Below, in pieces: positions 14,404 through 50,072 of a stretch of DNA of 54,217 bases (its first letter is position 1; each line of letters starts with the position of its first letter). A program made the translations under genes and the position numbers. Source of the stretch: a virus. The notes beneath the pieces are model-generated. The model ran no database searches. It saw only the letters and a list, made by a program, of their open reading frames with translations, and was not told where the DNA came from. The stretch lies in IMG/VR virus record IMGVR_UViG_3300014050_000030, positions 1-54,217 of that record; one strand, 5' to 3'.

Positions 14404-14421
14404 GTTGTTATCCTATCATAG

Positions 14422-14498
14422 TCCGCAGGGTGGGGCTTGAACCCACATATCGACCCAGTTTATAAGACTGGCGGCGTCACCAATTTGCCTACCTGCGG
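14422..14498 (-). tRNA. tRNA-Ile with anticodon UAU
   Basis: It folds as a cloverleaf of 77 bases without encoded CCA. The acceptor CCGCAGG/CCTGCGG is perfect. The anticodon stem CCAGT/ACTGG holds the loop CTTATAA, giving anticodon TAT. The T arm is GTGGG-TTCAAGC-CCCAC and the discriminator is A. The D stem is short (GGC/GCC) and the variable region is eight bases, longer than usual for a class I tRNA. UAU would read AUA codons directly. It stands alone among protein genes. Confidence 0.85.
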
Positions 14499-35921: not shown

Positions 35922-35993
35922 CCCCTCGTAGCTCAGAGGAAGAGCATCAGACTTCTAATCTGTTGGTCGCTGGTTCGAATCCAGCCGAGGGGA
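35922..35993 (+). tRNA. tRNA-Arg with anticodon UCU
   Basis: A 72-base cloverleaf with acceptor CCCCTCG/CGAGGGG, a D stem GCTC/GAGC, loop CTTCTAA giving anticodon TCT, a T arm GCTGG-TTCGAAT-CCAGC and discriminator A. CCA is not encoded. It reads AGA and AGG, which are rare in many actinobacteria, so it may support translation of phage genes. Confidence 0.92.
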
Positions 35994-36025
35994 CTAATAT
36001 CAATGACAGTCTTTAGGAGAGAGAT

Positions 36026-36220
36026 ATGAGTTCAGGCGTCAGACCTAGTTCCGATAAACCCGCAGAAGATTACTACTTCCAACCGTGGTGGGCCAAAGAG
36101 TTTATCCGCATTGTTGAAATCATGGAGAAAGCGGACTTGGCAAGGCTCAGCGAAAAGGATACAAAGGCCATGACAAAGGCTGCTGCGTCCCTTGCTAAGA
36201 TGTTCCCAGAGCGCCATTAG
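36026..36220 (+). CDS. Small hypothetical protein between tRNA genes
   Basis: An unrecognised 64-residue, helical, charged protein whose ATG follows a good AGGAGAGAG site. It is the only protein gene inside the plus-strand tRNA cluster. Its last codons and stop (36211-36220) overlap the first ten bases of tRNA-Lys, so translation and tRNA processing share sequence. Confidence 0.65.
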   Translation: MSSGVRPSSDKPAEDYYFQPWWAKEFIRIVEIMEKADLARLSEKDTKAMTKAAASLAKMFPERH

Positions 36221-36283
36221 CTCAGTTGGTAGAGCTGCGGACTTTTAATCCGTAGGTCGTAGGTTCGAGCCCTACATGGCGCA
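36211..36283 (+). tRNA. tRNA-Lys with anticodon UUU
   Basis: A 73-base cloverleaf. The acceptor GCGCCAT/ATGGCGC is perfect. The anticodon stem GCGGA/TCCGT holds loop CTTTTAA (anticodon TTT). The T arm is GTAGG-TTCGAGC-CCTAC and the discriminator is A. CCA is not encoded. The 5' end overlaps the stop of the 64-residue gene by ten bases. Confidence 0.93.
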
Positions 36284-36287
36284 CCTA

Positions 36288-36362
36288 TCCCCGGTAGCTC
36301 AACGGCAGAGCAGCCGACTGTTAATCGGCTGGTTGTTGGTTCGAATCCAGCCCGGGGAGCCA
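36288..36362 (+). tRNA. tRNA-Asn with anticodon GUU
   Basis: The cloverleaf spans 36288-36359 with acceptor TCCCCGG/CCGGGGA, anticodon stem GCCGA/TCGGC, loop CTGTTAA (anticodon GTT), T arm GTTGG-TTCGAAT-CCAGC and discriminator G. The CCA end is encoded at 36360-36362, unlike in the other tRNAs here. It lies four bases after tRNA-Lys. Confidence 0.93.
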
Positions 36363-36363
36363 A

Positions 36364-36436
36364 GCCCTTGTAGCCCAGCGGTAGAGGCAAGCGACTTAAA
36401 ATCGCTCAAGCGTGGGTTCGAATCCCACTGGGGGCA
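36364..36436 (+). tRNA. Class I-shaped tRNA with anticodon UAA (would be Leu)
   Basis: A 73-base cloverleaf with acceptor GCCCTTG/TGGGGGC (three wobble pairs), anticodon stem AGCGA/TCGCT and loop CTTAAAA, giving anticodon TAA. The T arm is GTGGG-TTCGAAT-CCCAC and the discriminator is A. The variable region is only five bases, so it lacks the long arm normal for leucine tRNAs. UAA reads the rare UUA codon. The true amino acid is uncertain. Its 3' end abuts the convergent tail gene. Confidence 0.85.
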
Positions 36437-39400
36437 CTACTCCGAGTAGGTCAAGCTATATAAAGCCGACCATCCAGGCCCGACTCCAATAGTTCCGGAA
36501 CCGTACAAGATTGCATCCGGCAACGTGTCCTTCAACCTAGCTTGCGCTGTCACAAAGTCTTTGTAGTAATAAGACTTTGAAGCATCCGCAGTACCAGCCC
36601 ATTTGGTGTCTCTATCAGATGCATCATACAAAGAATGGCCGTCGTAGTGGCCGTCAAAGTAAAACTTTCTAGACGCGCCTTTTTCAAACAACGCATTGTC
36701 AATGTAAATTGAGTAAGTACCGCCTGTGTTGGAAGTGTCAAAAGACTGCGCCACATATAAACCGACAATTGCACGAGTGTAGTTATTTGTGCCCAATGTG
36801 CCGCCCACCGAATTGCCTGGGACCGACATTCTTGTCCATGAAGAGGACAAATCCCACATGACATAAGGCAAGGTAGTTGTTTCAAAATAAGCTTTGGACA
36901 AGTCTGTATCAGACATTGATGTTGTTCTAGTAGCGGTGAAATACCTGTTACCTACAGCAGTAATCGTGTAAACAGTGTTTGCGTTAGTTGTATTGAATGC
37001 TGAAAAAGCAATTGTGTTCGCTACGTTTGCATACTGGGTAGACGGCAACCCGAATATATGCACTTTATCCCCCGCCAAAAATTGATGCGGGGTGTTGGTA
37101 TAGAAAGTCGCCACGTTGTTTTTGCAATAGACGCCTTTTAATGTGGGCGCATTGTCTATTCTGTAATTAGAACTAGCATCACCTGGGTTTGTCAAAATAT
37201 AAGGAAGCGCCGCCACACCAATGCCGCTTGGCAAAGATGGGATTTTTGCGCTAACGCTGAATACGTACTGCTCGTCTGCGTTTACAACCACGCCAGCTGT
37301 TGTTCCGCTTGTCGAATCGCCGTTAAAGTAGATGTTCTTTCCTATAAAAAAGTCCAGCACTATTGTTGAAAACACATACGCATTGTTATCAAATAAAGAG
37401 CTAGTGTTAGTGCCAGACGAGGAAACAGTAAATGACGTGGGGCTATTGACAGTTTGAATTGTAGACGATATATCTTCTGTATTGGTAACATCATTAGCAA
37501 CAGTTGAACCGCCGGTTATAGTTTGCCCGCTTGAAACATTAATAGGCCATGCTGTATTTACTACTATATCCCCGTTTAAATCATAAGAAGCACTTGACAC
37601 AGGAACCAGTTCGTAGAAAGAAGGGACTATTCCTCGTACATTTGAACTTCCAGTTCCTGCTTTGTACATTTTTACAGAGCCGCTATAAGGGACATTGGTC
37701 GGTTGGCCGCCTATAGTAAAAGTAGTGGTGCTAGTAACCGTAATAGAACCCTTTGCATAGCGCTCACTTGTCACAATGTAATCACCTGTTGTGTACCCGT
37801 GGCCACCTGAAACAGTGATAGTCGCGGTCGAGCCAGCAATATTTTTTGATATGGTTCCAGATATAGTGCTTGGAGTTGTAAGCGTCACAACTCCTGCGTA
37901 AGAACCCGTGACATGCGCAGCGGTAGTACGGGTTGTTATAGCGCTATTAGCAGGGTTTGGATAAACCATCGGAGCGACTGCGTCCGTCATATACCAAAAA
38001 TTAGTGTTGGTCTCAAAACTTGGATTAAGAACTTGATTAACTCTGTTTGGATGAACAGTTATGTTCACCACTCGGGCGTCTTGGTACGCGCTGGCAGACG
38101 AGCCTGCTTCAAATTGCGCAGCATCCATGTACATAATGTCACCATTAGAGCAGCTTAAGAACGTGACAATTGGAACCGCGTACCTGCTGTTTGATGGAGA
38201 TGTTGCCGTGACTGTGGCTCTTTGCCAGGTATTCGCAGAGCCTGACGCAGTGTTTAGAGTTGTTCCATAAGAAGATGTGCTCAGCAAAGTGCCTGTTTTG
38301 TCATACCACCGTATGGCAAGTTTAACGCTCTTACCTGTATAAGAGTCCCTATTAAAAAACGCGCTAAATGTGTAAGCAGTGCTTGCTGATATAGGGATGC
38401 AGGCCTCTAAAGCAGACCTACGGTCAAGAGCCACGGAGGAAAATTGAACTTCAGCCCCGCTAGCTATGTTGGTAATGAGCTTTTGAGACAATGTTAAAGA
38501 CGCAGTTGTCGTGTTAACAGCCTCAACATAAGTGCCTGTCGGCACAGCGGAGGATAAAACATAGTCTCCAACCTCAGCAATGAGAGGTTTGCATATTATT
38601 GAAGTTGCGGAGGTGGCTGCGCTGGTAGCCGTGACAGTTCTTTTTTGCCCTAGCCGCAAAGTAACATCTTGCGTGCTTCCTAAAACAGCATTTAATTTCA
38701 AGAACCCTTTTTCCTTAAAAGGCCCTTGATAGGTGTCACTGCCGCTATGTCCATACGGGTAAACAGAGTTTTCATTTGTCAAAACCCACGAGATGAAAGG
38801 AGCATAAGGAGCGGTGCTGGCGTAAGCTGTTTCACCGCCGTTAATCTCCGGATACCAGCTTCCTAAAGATTCCACAAAACTGGAAGAGTTGTAATCCAAC
38901 AATCTGTTCACTCCACCGCCTGCAACAGGAGTGGAAGCTATGGTCGAGCCGTAGCCGGTGTAAAGCTCTATAAAATTTTTAATTCCGTCGATAGACCCTG
39001 ACTTTGTATATGAATCTATCAAGTTTGCAAGCAGCACACGCCCTTGCGCAACACTCATATCTCCGTACAACGAAGCCCCAAATTGCTTCAATAAAGCAGT
39101 CAAAAGCTTGGAGTCGACTGTTGAAGGGTTGTGCATGTCAAAAACATTGGTGGTTTGCTGTTTGTACAAAGAAAGATGAAAAGCAAAAAGGGCGAGAAAA
39201 TCTTTCAAATCATCGTTTTCCGATTTATATACAGAGGGAATACTTGCCATCAATGTGTCTAGCATCCCGTCATCTTTGACGACAAGCGTGGTTTCCACGG
39301 CGCTTCTGCTGACATATTGGTTTGAGCTGACGGTGTATGTCATAAACAGCGCGTAATAAGCGGTTTTACCCTGAAGGTAATCCCCCGTGACCCCCTTGCC

Positions 39401-43952: not shown

Positions 43953-44980
43953 TATTGAGACACCAACTTTCCTTTGGACGCCTTCCCTGCAGTTGCCATC
44001 AAGTTGAAGCTTAGAGATACGTCGGTCTCAATTGGAATCATTCCTTTTGTGAACGCATTGTGGGAAACAACCATGTTGCTGACATAGCCCAAATAAGAAA
44101 TAGGGCCGATGTCGATTCTTAAAAGAGTCGGGGTCAAGAACCCGATATCAGAGCTCTCAGCCATCTCTTTGGACAGAGCGTCATTTCTCCAACCCGGCCC
44201 ATTAATTGCTTTATAGAGATACTCAATATCTGCAACAGTTCCGCGCCTAGCCAGCTCTGTTAATTTTGCCTTAAAGGACTCATTAGTTTCTTTTGAATTT
44301 AAACCATGTTTATAAGCATTGCGCAAATCATTGAGGTTGGCATCGCTTATATTAAATTTCTGAGCGGAACCTTCGTTTGTACGGCCAGAACGCAAAGCAA
44401 AGAAATCATTTCGGCGGTCAAGTTTTATTGTCACGCTGAGCGCCTCACCGCTTGGAAAGGCGCCAACAACTCCCACAAATTTATCATAAGACGTGGGGGT
44501 GATATCTAAATTAACAGACACAGAAGTTTGAAAGTTTTGAGGATTCCAAAGAAATTGGAACCCGTATCTTGGGTCGTTTTTGTCCTTGCTTTGAAACGCC
44601 CCCGAGTAGGACGTGTTTACACGAGAATAGTAAAAAATTCTTCCGCGACGTTTTCTGTGCGTGGCATCCTCATCTTTAATACCAACGCTATCTACGGTTA
44701 AGTCGTCAAGATAAGTGTTGTCCACAGGCAAGCTTGAAATATGCGGGGGCAGGTTCCAGCTGTAGTTTTCTTGTATTTCCGCATACGTTGGTTTAGTTTC
44801 CGGAATGTCAGACTCAGGCTTTCCAGCGCCAGCAACACCGGGAAGTTTATCTGGGGCAAATCCCAGGCTTCCTCCAGAAGCATAACTAATCAATGCTTGA
44901 GCTTCAAAAGAATCAGTAGGCACACCGGCTGTTGTCGTCGCCTCATAATTAACAGCTGTGCTTTTTCCTAATGCAGCCAT
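43952..44980 (-). CDS. Baseplate/tail tube-adaptor-like protein
   Basis: A 342-residue protein between the tape measure and the LysM protein. The N-terminal 100 residues are low complexity. The middle and C-terminal parts are beta-rich, with FQFLWNPQNFQTSVSVNLDITPT and LLRIDIGPISYLGYVSNMVVS, as in the tube-to-baseplate adaptors of contractile systems. No catalytic motif is seen. It overlaps the tape measure stop by one base. Confidence 0.65.
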   Translation of the reverse strand: MAALGKSTAVNYEATTTAGVPTDSFEAQALISYASGGSLGFAPDKLPGVAGAGKPESDIPETKPTYAEIQENYSWNLPPHISSLPVDNTYLDDLTVDSVGIKDEDATHRKRRGRIFYYSRVNTSYSGAFQSKDKNDPRYGFQFLWNPQNFQTSVSVNLDITPTSYDKFVGVVGAFPSGEALSVTIKLDRRNDFFALRSGRTNEGSAQKFNISDANLNDLRNAYKHGLNSKETNESFKAKLTELARRGTVADIEYLYKAINGPGWRNDALSKEMAESSDIGFLTPTLLRIDIGPISYLGYVSNMVVSHNAFTKGMIPIETDVSLSFNLMATAGKASKGKLVSQ

Positions 44981-46473
44981 TATCCTCTACCCGCTCCCTT
45001 TTTAACCCAGTCCCAACTTATGTTTACATTTATAGGCTTTGTATTTAAAAACCCGGCAGTAGCTGGATTTATTGGATTAGGAATATTTGCACCAATACCT
45101 GGCGCCATTAAAGCCGAGCCGATTCCCACAACACCGCCTAATATGTCGGAAGCGCCCGTTGAAAAAGTTCTACCATATTTATTTATTTGGAATAGGTCTG
45201 TTAAAGAGGTTGTTGTGCTTGCCAGCAAACTGATTAACCCAGCTCCCGCACCATTTCCGGCACCTGCAAGAACCTCTAAAAATGATTGAAGTGCTGTAAC
45301 ACCTTTTATCATATCCCTATCAGCCAAGTTTGACAGTAAATCACTAATGCCTGAGACAACGGTATTTGCCTGAATAGTTCCCACATTCACGGGCGTGGCA
45401 AAATTCTGGGCAAGACGAGTGCCGACGGCATTCCTATTTGCGGTGCTAATCACAGTTTGGGTAAGGCCGCCGGTTTTAGCAAGCTCTGCTTTAGTGCCTA
45501 TTCCAGCCATTTTTGCGCCTTTGTTTCTTGCCTTTTGAATCAAAGCGGCAAGCACTGATTGGCGAAGATTTTCATCATTGCCAAAATATTGGTTGAGTAA
45601 GCTATCTAAAGCATTGCCGGACATTGCCGATACTGCAATAGCCTGCTCTGTCGGTTCTTCACCTGCGGCGTTTTTAAGAATGTCATACAAGTCATCAATA
45701 ATGGCAGGTATGTCCCGCATACCCGTGCCTTCTTCATTTCTGACATTGATACCAATCATTCGAAGCCTGTTCACACTTCGAGCTTGGTTTAATGCGGCAA
45801 CGGCTCCCATACCGCCTTGAAGACCAATGCCGGGGCTCAAATTAGAGAACAAAGAGGCGCCGCCCATGACACCGCCAAATTGTTGGGTTGCCCCAAAGTT
45901 TTTTAAACCTGGCAACAGCCCCGAACTTGCGGCGACATTTGATGCGTACATTGCGTCCATGTCGCTTGTAGCCAAGCCTAAAGAGGCGGCATTTAGCTGC
46001 ATGTTATACGCGTTTTCAAGAGAGATATTCCGGTTGTAAAAACCCATGCGCGAGCCGAACATCTCGGTATACATTGCCTTTTGCGGAGAGGGCGCAATCA
46101 TTCCCATAATTTGCTGAAGGCCTATAGATAAACCTCCGGCAGTTCCGATAATTCCGGAAATAGTCCCGGGGACAAATCTATTTTTATTTGTTTTAGGGTC
46201 TATATCTTGATAGTCACTGACGTAGTCTCTAGTTGTTCCGCCTACCCCACCAGCGCTAAGGCCAAACCCCTCATCATTTGGAAACGGGGTGGAGGTGCTG
46301 TAACCGCCTCCACCGCGACCGCCTCCGCGCCCGCCATAAGATAAGGAATTAACAGCATCTAAAACTGTTGAAAAATTAGCACTGATGTTGCCGGAGAACT
46401 GTTGCAGCTTCTCCATGAAACCGTTGAGAGACGCCAGGAAATTTATATTCCTGAGCTCATCATCATCAGCCAT
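44980..46473 (-). CDS. Probable tape measure protein
   Basis: A 497-residue protein in the tape-measure position: after the tube and tail-assembly chaperone and before the baseplate genes. It starts with an acidic, Gly-rich N-terminus (GRGGGRGGGG), followed by long hydrophobic and Ala/Gly-rich helical stretches (TISGIIGTAGGLSIGLQQI, LAGAGNGAGAGLISLL), as expected for tape measures that span the tail lumen. It is short for this class and would fit a tail of about 70-80 nm by the usual length rule. The start overlaps the frame-shifted chaperone by eight bases. Confidence 0.7.
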   Translation of the reverse strand: MADDDELRNINFLASLNGFMEKLQQFSGNISANFSTVLDAVNSLSYGGRGGGRGGGGYSTSTPFPNDEGFGLSAGGVGGTTRDYVSDYQDIDPKTNKNRFVPGTISGIIGTAGGLSIGLQQIMGMIAPSPQKAMYTEMFGSRMGFYNRNISLENAYNMQLNAASLGLATSDMDAMYASNVAASSGLLPGLKNFGATQQFGGVMGGASLFSNLSPGIGLQGGMGAVAALNQARSVNRLRMIGINVRNEEGTGMRDIPAIIDDLYDILKNAAGEEPTEQAIAVSAMSGNALDSLLNQYFGNDENLRQSVLAALIQKARNKGAKMAGIGTKAELAKTGGLTQTVISTANRNAVGTRLAQNFATPVNVGTIQANTVVSGISDLLSNLADRDMIKGVTALQSFLEVLAGAGNGAGAGLISLLASTTTSLTDLFQINKYGRTFSTGASDILGGVVGIGSALMAPGIGANIPNPINPATAGFLNTKPINVNISWDWVKKGAGRG

Positions 46474-46624
46474 TGCTCTTACCTCTAACCGCTCTTAAAA
46501 TCCAATTTTGGCGTTGTCTGAAAGAAAGGCCGCGAATATCAGATAGCGACCAGCCCGTGAAGACTCTTGTCAAGCCTTCGTATTGGTCCATTAAGCTCTC
46601 AAAGTATTTTTCACCAAATTCGAA
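46466..46624 (-). CDS. Frameshifted C-terminal part of the tail-assembly chaperone (reached by +1 shift)
   Basis: In the +1 frame, an open segment begins after a stop near 46645 and continues from the Phe codon TTC (46622-46624) into GEKYFESLMDQYEGLTRVF and a basic end (RQRQNWILRAVRGK). It overlaps the chaperone gene and the tape measure start. It has an internal ATG at 46591 that would give a 41-residue independent protein, but its lack of a good ribosome-binding site and its position between the tail chaperone and tape measure favour a fusion made by frameshifting. Confidence 0.65.
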   Translation of the reverse strand, partial: FEFGEKYFESLMDQYEGLTRVFTGWSLSDIRGLSFRQRQNWILRAVRGKSNG

Positions 46625-47408
46625 ACAAAGACTGAAGGCTTAACGGAATCATAATCTCGTTCCCGCAAGCCCCACATGCCTTCTTCACCCCCCCGAGGCG
46701 TGGACCCGGAGCTCCAGCTGAAATCAGGTCTATAACGGTAGACCTATCCTGGAGCCCTAGGCTTAATGCCACGGAGTTGCCCACAACCGGTTCCCCGTTC
46801 AAAGAGAGAATGCATCCGGCTAGGACAAGGGTGACCAACTCGGCTGTTGTTTTGTTGACAGCCTCGGCCACTTTTCTTTGGGTGATTCCGTTTGGATAAG
46901 CAACTACTAGCTTTCCTAATTTAGTATCGACTGAAAAAGTCTTGGAAAAACCTTCTTCATTATTGAATGTTTTTACTTCAATATCATTCAACAAGTCGAT
47001 GTTGACCGATTGATGCGTCGAGCAGCTAGGGCAGTTGATATTAAAAGCTTCAACTGTTCCGAATGTTACGCGTCTGATAGCCAAAAGCAGGGTGTCCCTG
47101 TCGCCTGCAAGCAAGGAGTCGAGTTCCAATTCGCCCGGAATGGTGTTGCCTAGCTTCACCACACCGCGCTGGAGGATTACATTTAATTTTGCGCCTGGAT
47201 TTTCAATGACGGAAATTACTTCTTCATCGGCTCCGTTAAGTTCCCGTACTTCGGCGGTTTTTACAAACTCGCCATTTGGAAGCCTGACCCCGCCAGGTAA
47301 ACTTACCAGCGTGTCCGTAGGCGGAGTCGTTTTCACGGCCTCCGTGTAATTTGTTACACTCTCAGCTAATTGTGTGACAATATTAGGGTCGGTAATTATT
47401 TTACTCAT
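46611..47408 (-). CDS. Tail-assembly chaperone (T4 gp26-like / Mu gp41-type), zinc-ribbon containing
   Basis: A 265-residue protein in the tail-assembly chaperone slot between tube and tape measure. The middle contains LLAGDRDTLLLAIRRVTFGTV, as in gp26-like baseplate/chaperone proteins. Two CxxC pairs, CPSC (126-129) and CGAC (245-248), could bind zinc. Its C-terminus ends in QSLFRIW just where a second frame opens. In phages this region is normally extended by programmed frameshifting, so two products are likely. The ATG follows an AAGGTG site. Confidence 0.75.
   Translation of the reverse strand: MSKIITDPNIVTQLAESVTNYTEAVKTTPPTDTLVSLPGGVRLPNGEFVKTAEVRELNGADEEVISVIENPGAKLNVILQRGVVKLGNTIPGELELDSLLAGDRDTLLLAIRRVTFGTVEAFNINCPSCSTHQSVNIDLLNDIEVKTFNNEEGFSKTFSVDTKLGKLVVAYPNGITQRKVAEAVNKTTAELVTLVLAGCILSLNGEPVVGNSVALSLGLQDRSTVIDLISAGAPGPRLGGVKKACGACGNEIMIPLSLQSLFRIW
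46620..46625 (-). promoter_or_regulatory. Putative programmed +1 frameshift site UUU_CGA
   Basis: In the zero frame the mRNA reads TTG TTT CGA ATT TGG TGA. A tRNA-Phe on UUU can slip forward to UUC, after which GAA is read and the open +1 frame continues. The slow Arg codon CGA in the A site and the nearby stop (UGA) would favour slipping. This resembles the UUU_CGU site of influenza PA-X. The fusion would join the chaperone at Phe262. Confidence 0.6.
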
Positions 47409-48061: not shown

Positions 48062-50053
48062 TTATCCTACCGTTGAGATGGAAGCGCCAGTGTTGGTCTG
48101 GCCGATTTTGATGATGATGAATTCAGCAGGTCTGGTCAGAGCCACGCCCACCTCGATGTTCAACTCGCCGTTGTTAATGGAATTAGCAGTGTTGTTCGTG
48201 TCATCGCATTTAACATAAAATGCCTGCTGAGCGGTGGAGCCAGCAAGCCCGCCATCAGTCCAGAACTTGTAAAGGAAACTGTTTACCGTGTTAGTAACCG
48301 CGTCCCAAAGCAATTGGGTATTGGGCTCAAATACATATGCAGCAGTCAAATCTGACAGTTGCTTGCCCAAGTAAATAAGCGAGCGCCGAGTTGAAACATA
48401 CCGTTCCGTGCTTGTGGAGCTGAGAGTTCGGGCACCCATGATGCAGAATCCGGACCCGGGCACCGTCTTTATGATGTTGATGGAGACAGGGTTGTTGTTC
48501 AACTTGGAGTAATCCGAGGTTGAGATTCCCTTGACGGCAATGGCATCTTGGACAATCGATTTTGTGCCTGCAGGTGACTTATAGACACCGCGAGCAACGT
48601 CCGTCGATACATACGCTGCCGAGACAGCCCCGCCTGCAGGAATTGTCTTTGGAGTTGGCGACCCCGGGTATTTGGCATCGGCAACTTGAATCTGCGGATA
48701 GTAAGCCGCGCCATATTTGGCGCTTGCTTGCGAGTAGCTGTTCACCGTGGCAAGAACATTGGTGACGGTGTCATTGGCGCAGTCAATTACCGCAAATGCG
48801 TCTTTTCTTCCGGCAGCATAGGCAAGAATCTTGTCAATATTTGTCTTGCTGGTGATGTTGGGGAAGTTAAACACAAGAGGTCCTGATACACCGTCAAGAC
48901 GGGCAAGCTGCTTGTCAAGGTCGGAATCTTGCGTGCCATTGCTTCCGGACGTGACAGCGCTGGCATTTGCGGTAGCAGCCGTGCCAACTTTAATAGCGGT
49001 CTTAGTAAAATTCTGAACATTGTAGTTCAGTTTTCCGTCCCCGCTACCGGCTGCAGTGATATTTGCAGATGTAGTGGAGGTTGACCAAGTTCCGGTGAAC
49101 ACCGGAAGGCGGAATCGGCTGGTCGAGCTTGCCGCAGTTGTGCCAAGAGTAACCGTAATCCAATTAGAGTTAATTACTTTCAAAAAGTAATTATTATCGT
49201 CGGAGTTCATGCTGAGGTTGAACCAGCGCTCCACAACCTTTGAGTTAGCCGCGTCGATGTTCAAATCCCCGTATGTTGTTGCTGCCGTTGAGTAATAGAC
49301 AACCAGGTCAAACAGCAACTCGCTTCCACTGTTCGGGTAAATACCGACCCACAAGCTGTTGCCCCAAGTGCCGTGGTCCTTGGCAGAGACGACAAGAGAA
49401 GTTGTGGTGCTGTTTATCGCACCAGTAACCGTGATGCCAGAAGCCTGTGTGGCAGTAGTGACGTCGGTAGAACCGGTCCACACCAAAGTAGCCACAGTGT
49501 TTGTGTTGGTTGACACCACCCAGTCGCCGGTGTTCAAGAAAGTAAAGCCTGTTGCGGTAACACCGGCAAAGTCAATCGCGGTTCCCGAAGCAAGGTTGGC
49601 AAACGGTGTTCCTGATGCAGCTGTGATAGTCAGTTGGTTAGACGCGGTAGCAGTTGCAAAAGTCCAGTTGACGCTGCCTTGCGTGATGGACGCGTTCTGG
49701 TCACGCAATGAGGAGCTTGCTTTTGCAGCGTTTGTCGCAACAATGTCGCGGATGATGTACGCCTGACCGCCGCCATTGTCAAAAAACGATTTAACCGCGT
49801 ATTTAAGGTCGGTGGCATTTGACCAGATGTCAGCATTTGATGCCGAGCTGCCATAGCTGAAGTAGGTCTTGAAGTCCTCAAAACTGGTGACAAGCGTAGG
49901 AACGCCAACAACAGTGCTGTTGTCGTCCACCGTCGTCGGGCCCCTATCGGAGCTGCCCACAAAGGCGGCAACAGAGGTAATATTATTAATAGCCGTGGTT
50001 CCGCCCAAAATAGAGATTTCCTCCACTGTGACTGAGCCGGGGGTCTGAGCCAT
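48062..50053 (-). CDS. Contractile tail sheath protein
   Basis: A 663-residue protein whose C-terminal region carries the phage tail sheath signature: ARTLSSTSTERYVSTRRSL, LSDLTAAYVFEPNTQLLWD and GELNIEVGVALTRPAEFIIIKI. The N-terminus PGSVTVEEISILGG also matches. The middle is Thr/Ser-rich and beta-strand-rich, likely the variable surface domains. ATG 50053 follows an AGGAGA site and is preferred over the GTG at 50056. It is the main contractile component of the tail. Confidence 0.95.
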   Translation of the reverse strand: MAQTPGSVTVEEISILGGTTAINNITSVAAFVGSSDRGPTTVDDNSTVVGVPTLVTSFEDFKTYFSYGSSASNADIWSNATDLKYAVKSFFDNGGGQAYIIRDIVATNAAKASSSLRDQNASITQGSVNWTFATATASNQLTITAASGTPFANLASGTAIDFAGVTATGFTFLNTGDWVVSTNTNTVATLVWTGSTDVTTATQASGITVTGAINSTTTSLVVSAKDHGTWGNSLWVGIYPNSGSELLFDLVVYYSTAATTYGDLNIDAANSKVVERWFNLSMNSDDNNYFLKVINSNWITVTLGTTAASSTSRFRLPVFTGTWSTSTTSANITAAGSGDGKLNYNVQNFTKTAIKVGTAATANASAVTSGSNGTQDSDLDKQLARLDGVSGPLVFNFPNITSKTNIDKILAYAAGRKDAFAVIDCANDTVTNVLATVNSYSQASAKYGAAYYPQIQVADAKYPGSPTPKTIPAGGAVSAAYVSTDVARGVYKSPAGTKSIVQDAIAVKGISTSDYSKLNNNPVSINIIKTVPGSGFCIMGARTLSSTSTERYVSTRRSLIYLGKQLSDLTAAYVFEPNTQLLWDAVTNTVNSFLYKFWTDGGLAGSTAQQAFYVKCDDTNNTANSINNGELNIEVGVALTRPAEFIIIKIGQTNTGASISTVG

Positions 50054-50072
50054 CACTTCTCCTTGATAAGTT

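Follow-up and report, generated by a model that had tools for sequence, protein, structure and literature searches.

A single tail gene in the window, by which we mean the whole 54,217-nucleotide stretch of viral DNA analysed here, very probably encodes both a short and a long tail assembly chaperone, the long form being made by programmed +1 frameshifting at UUU_CGA. The frameshift site itself is, on comparative sequence evidence, almost certainly real, since it is retained by every one of the 181 different relatives examined. A +1 shift at this position, giving an extended tail assembly chaperone, had been proposed in a preliminary description of the window, and the comparative evidence strongly supports it. 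The features concerned are as follows.

48062 to 50056, minus strand: tail sheath protein, by profile match to PF17482
47417 to 48055, minus strand: tail tube protein and upstream neighbour of the chaperone gene, by profile match to PF06841 gp19
46611 to 47408, minus strand: zero-frame gene for the short tail assembly chaperone, 265 aa, PF12322 T4_baseplate and phrog_150, with an AlphaFold2 model
46623 to 46628, minus strand: E-site codon UUG (46628-46626) and predicted P-site slip codon UUU (46625-46623), from conservation in relatives
46622, minus strand: base that would be skipped in the +1 shift, the first of the A-site codon CGA; C in 172, U in 9 and A or G in 0 relatives
46622-46620, minus strand: A-site codon CGA
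46611 to 46613, minus strand: zero-frame stop UGA, four codons past the UUU (1-8 codons in relatives)
46466 to 46621, minus strand: +1-frame extension, 51 aa plus stop, the putative T-like domain of the long product, from dN/dS (~0.13) and codon-position differences
44980 to 46473, minus strand: next tail gene, 497 aa, with a tape measure role suggested by position only

The 265-aa chaperone ORF ends in ...CTT CAG TCT TTG TTT CGA ATT TGG TGA (protein end S-L-F-R-I-W-stop), and the octamer TTGTTTCG occurs a single time in the whole 54,217-base record, at the slip site. The open +1 stretch begins 14 nt upstream of the UUU and ends with the TGA at 46468-46466; translated past the slip it reads EFGEKYFESLMDQYEGLTRVFTGWSLSDIRGLSFRQRQNWILRAVRGKSNG (51 aa), and its last 8 nt are shared with the start of the next ORF (ATG at 46473). 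The zero-frame end at UGA and the +1 frame open to 46466, both described before, were confirmed in the window and are conserved in the relatives, while the described overlap with the start of the tape measure gene holds as an overlap with the next ORF, whose tape measure identity comes from its position only. Taken by itself, the window's run of 51 open +1 codons is only mildly unusual (P ~0.045 in shuffles), and it is its conservation in relatives that places it beyond chance. In the main ORFs of the window, C-first codons follow 9.6% of UUU codons vs 28.9% of UUC codons (Fisher P ~1e-7), which is consistent with avoidance of slip sites and could also be caused by general codon context.

Relatives were searched in viral contigs, bacterial genomes and phage records, yielding 190 distinct junction sequences. 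A profile of the extension matched the +1 frame in 181 of them, the −1 frame in 2 and the zero frame in none; no junction matched by the profile had the single continuous frame that the preliminary description had set against a shift. The 7 junctions that the profile did not match belong to distant jumbo phage relatives, to broken or cut-off contigs and to one Ramlibacter locus. The 181 +1 relatives are distinct sequences from IMG/VR contigs, actinobacterial loci and cultured Streptomyces phages, and every one of them carries an in-frame UUU followed by a pyrimidine (C in 172, U in 9), 1-8 codons ahead of the zero-frame stop. When the region open in both frames was intersected over the relatives, it shrank to −5 to +6 around the UUU, which bears out the earlier placing of the slip site at this codon. 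The E-site codon was UUG in 111 relatives, CUG in 45 and another codon in 25, and the A-site codon was CGN in 132, CAR in 22, CUN in 16, a stop (all three kinds) in 6 and another codon in 5. Of UUU_CGN, for which conservation among related phages had been suggested as a check, the UUU and the pyrimidine were retained throughout (181/181) and CGN in only 132/181.

In the Streptomyces phages BRock, LuckySocke, Alone3, GiJojo and pSt2308 the site reads CUG UUU, then CGC or CAG, then GAA CUC and UAA or UGA, and the extension lies in +1; for Streptomyces phages, the part downstream of the site is given in GenBank as separate small genes or is unannotated. A +1 frameshift is also probable in Bacillus phage SP-15 (L350 34990-35930), which lies outside the 181 and in which UUU_CAC is followed by a +1 frame through the separately annotated SP15_046, read by eye from a similar W...M...ER pattern. 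Two further contigs were noted. In IMGVR_UViG_3300037189_007925 (L006/L100) the zero frame of the chaperone is broken upstream of the site, probably by an assembly indel, and LR756508 (484 kb), whose extension was missed by the profile and which stands outside the count, probably shifts at UUU_CUA.

Across a tree with 180 tips, 0 changes fell on the third base of the UUU, 39-54 on each of the neighbouring upstream third codon positions, 15 on the E-site codon's third position and 20 on the Phe codon within the conserved TFG motif. The class of the A-site codon changed at least 15 times, always with C or U as its first base. UUU was present at the site in 17 of 17 members of the actinobacterial and Streptomyces phage set, as against 16% of the Phe codons in the same genes, and UUG encoded the preceding Leu in 94 of 101 members of the environmental clade, as against 13% of the Leu codons in the same genes; binomial P values for these biases take no account of relatedness among the sequences. 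The constant pyrimidine after the UUU favours a +1 over a −2 shift, since re-pairing of tRNA-Phe to UUY needs a pyrimidine and a −2 shift does not. As had been pointed out previously, and as we agree, a −2 shift here, such as that of phage Mu, would reach the same frame; its product would have one extra residue (Leu-Phe-Phe-Glu), and sequence alone gives no formal separation of the two. We nevertheless regard a −2 shift as very improbable: the tRNA-Phe in UUG UUU cannot re-pair two bases upstream, the base after the UUU would be left unconstrained and yet is a pyrimidine in 181/181 despite varied residues there, and mass spectrometry assigned the closely similar UUU_CGU site of influenza PA-X to +1 (PMC3498833).

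As judged from differences of 0.19/0.10/0.38 at the three codon positions and a median dN/dS of ~0.13, the extension is under purifying selection. The W, R, E, R and W of its motif GWxLxDIRxLSxRERxxW are near-invariant. In Pfam and PHROGs it had only weak matches, most often to P2 GpE (8 of 34 members at E ≤1, best 0.0038), a resemblance compatible with the T-like domain of tail chaperones, and no PDB sequence matched the fused family. That the +1 ORF might be an independently started small gene, as GenBank has it for several Streptomyces phages and for SP-15, would suit these database annotations of small downstream ORFs and the ATG that lies 10 codons into the window's own extension. However, ATG is absent from 100 of the 181 extensions (and from 41 of 64 in an earlier set), and 59 of the 181 have no ATG, GTG or TTG ahead of the RER motif, so that independent initiation cannot be the general route. 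Since a separate gene would also leave the frozen UUU-Y site and the strong UUG bias before the UUU unexplained, we give this reading very little credence. Sequence comparison establishes, for the +1 shift, that the +1 frame is conserved as coding sequence, that the conserved slip site narrows to the UUU and that a usable start codon is often lacking.

Single-base indels are common in IMG/VR-type virus records such as the window, and a sequencing error or indel at the site had been named as what would refute the shift. Such an error, or decay of the gene through a real indel, was refuted by the comparison with relatives and retains practically no probability, as the one-base offset recurs in cultured phage genomes and, over many samples, in 181 distinct sequences, with a dN/dS of ~0.13. 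Transcriptional slippage, which would give the same protein from a second mRNA one base shorter, is scarcely credible either, as bacterial RNA polymerase is known to slip on runs of about eight or more and the run here is only UUU in most relatives, between G and C.

The product of the chaperone gene matched PF12322 T4_baseplate at 39.3 bits (curated cut-off 24.5), a model that T4 gp26 and gp51 also match, and in addition phrog_150 baseplate hub; the tail chaperone identity proposed earlier was upheld and is amended specifically to the T4 gp26/gp51 family. An AlphaFold2 model of the zero-frame product only had a mean pLDDT of 91.9. Its best PDB match was the HK97 tail assembly chaperone 2ob9, both in Foldseek (prob 0.85, E 0.33) and in VIA-align (Z 4.8, rmsd 3.4 over 88 residues), the latter below the level that is safe alone; a fold of the short product like that of the HK97 tail assembly chaperone is suggestive only. 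The zero-frame product also has four conserved cysteines in two CxxC pairs (Cys126, Cys129, Cys245 and Cys248), and weak structure matches to zinc-binding domains suggest a putative zinc site.

The gene order in the window is sheath, gp19-like tube, chaperone gene, 497-aa ORF, LysM, hub, injector OB-domain, gp25-like and baseplate J. The PF12322 gene lies between the tube and tape measure genes, the position by which tail chaperones are recognized, with the tape measure gene assigned by position only; the 497-aa ORF downstream of the chaperone gave no Pfam or PHROG match. In one relative (L179), the gene after the chaperone encodes 995 aa with M23 and lysozyme-like domains. The tRNA genes of the window comprise a cluster of Arg(UCU), Lys, Asn and Leu(UAA) at 35922-36437 and a tRNA with anticodon UAU at 14421-14498.

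That slippage takes place in cells, and how efficiently, we infer. One gene would give two chaperone products in a fixed ratio: most ribosomes would pass UUU_CGA in frame and terminate at the nearby UGA, producing the short form, and some would skip one base at the UUU, producing the long form. The P-site tRNA-Phe would slip from UUU to UUY, a step favoured by the codon in the E site and by pausing at the A site. If the two forms divide their work as lambda gpG and gpGT do, the tape measure protein may be coated by the short one and tail tube subunits recruited by the long one. No Shine-Dalgarno-like or purine-rich element upstream of the site was conserved in the base frequencies of the relatives, and downstream RNA structure was not above background, with a mean z of −0.34 (+5 to +65) and −0.94 (+8 to +108) and of −0.74 in a control gene region. 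A stop codon occupies the A site in only 6 of 181 relatives. CGA is the rarest Arg codon in the main ORFs of the window (48/609), and a slow Arg codon had been taken as a property of the site; the comparison did not bear this out in general, as the A-site codon of relatives is usually CGC, a common Arg codon, and CAR, CUN and stops also occur, so a rare A-site Arg codon found no support as the general cause.

With these findings, tail-chaperone frameshifting, so far described chiefly as −1, would also cover a broad set of contractile-tailed phages within the T4 gp26/gp51 family. Its many naturally occurring site variants amount to ready-made mutagenesis of the effects of E-, P- and A-site codons on +1 slippage, and the presence of the site in cultured Streptomyces phages makes it directly testable. 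As regards annotation, what is listed as small downstream genes in BRock, LuckySocke, Alone3, GiJojo and SP-15 very probably encodes the C-terminal part of the chaperone.

Within the PF12322 family, short and long forms appear to be made in three ways. Besides the +1 sites, a −1 frameshift is probable in the jumbo phages PA5oct (L088 2971-3825) and Atu_ph07 (L089 2983-3825) and in the environmental locus L267, where U_UUU_UUC stands just ahead of the zero-frame stop and the continuation lies in the −1 frame. This continuation is unannotated in PA5oct and Atu_ph07, where it was judged by eye (AWSLSYQER and AWTLSPYER, respectively) and the extension profile gave no significant score. Lysobacter and Ramlibacter contigs (L182-L185) likewise carry PF12322 genes with U_UUU_UUU and a −1 extension, and in L182 the PF12322 gene is preceded by one that Pfam assigns to the tail sheath. 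In PA5oct, Atu_ph07 and the Lysobacter and Ramlibacter contigs the shift would occur at the same Phe codons that end the short form, with −1 instead of +1. T4 gp26 and gp51 belong to the same Pfam family but are encoded by two separate genes on opposite strands; gp51 consists of a gp26-like part and a C-terminal tail that resembles the +1 extension by eye, and an HMM comparison of this tail with the extension profile was not significant (E 0.19). A frameshift in PF12322 also bears on the T4-like phages, for which an article by Vladimirov et al. (2022, in Virology) reportedly proposes a non-frameshift mechanism. On balance, we favour the view that the +1 sites form a large natural bacterial class defined by nothing more than three codons (UUG or CUG as E-site codon, UUU as P-site codon and any C- or U-first codon at the A site), without a Shine-Dalgarno element or RNA structure, and that PF12322 has, at one and the same residue, three routes to its short and long forms (+1 at UUU_Y, −1 at U_UUU_UUY and two genes in T4).

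Tail assembly chaperone frameshifts were reportedly treated by Xu, Hendrix and Duda in 2004. The arrangement in the window resembles lambda gpG/gpGT, reviewed with other tail-chaperone frameshifts in PMC5009743, in that a short and a long chaperone would come from one gene with a shift near its 3' end and a small C-terminal domain on the long form, and in that the gene lies between the tail tube and the tape measure position. It differs in the shift, which is a −1 at heptamers in lambda and most others and −2 in Mu, whereas here it would be +1 at a single UUU codon, and in the chaperone, which here is a PF12322 protein whose cysteine pairs are reminiscent of a zinc ribbon. UUU_C slippage has been established experimentally for influenza PA-X, with further UUU_C members predicted by Firth et al. 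(PMC3498833), and UUU_CGN is the motif of plant amalgaviruses too (PMC5052127). Common to these and the present site is a P-site UUU that would slip +1 to UUC ahead of CGN; they differ in having eukaryotic ribosomes and unrelated genes, and, unlike in them, stops, CAR and CUN also occur here in the A site and the E site is usually UUG or CUG. The likeness to PA-X drawn in the preliminary description stands for the UUU and pyrimidine in the region open in both frames (181/181) and fails for a rare CGN in the A site (CGN in 132/181, with CGC common). The same description had given the known tail-chaperone frameshifts as −1 in lambda and −2 in Mu, to which we add that +1 shifts in phage tail genes are already known: they occur at CCC_UGA and CCC_UAA in tail proteins of the Listeria phages PSA, A118 and A500 and of SPP1, and a putative one lies in a tail gene of the haloarchaeal myovirus HSTV-2 (PMC5009743, PMC6316719, PMC8211752). 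The Listeria phages and SPP1 share with the site described here +1 P-site slippage in phage tail genes, and differ from it in having the proline codon CCC as the slip codon and in that the genes concerned are those of tail tube proteins.
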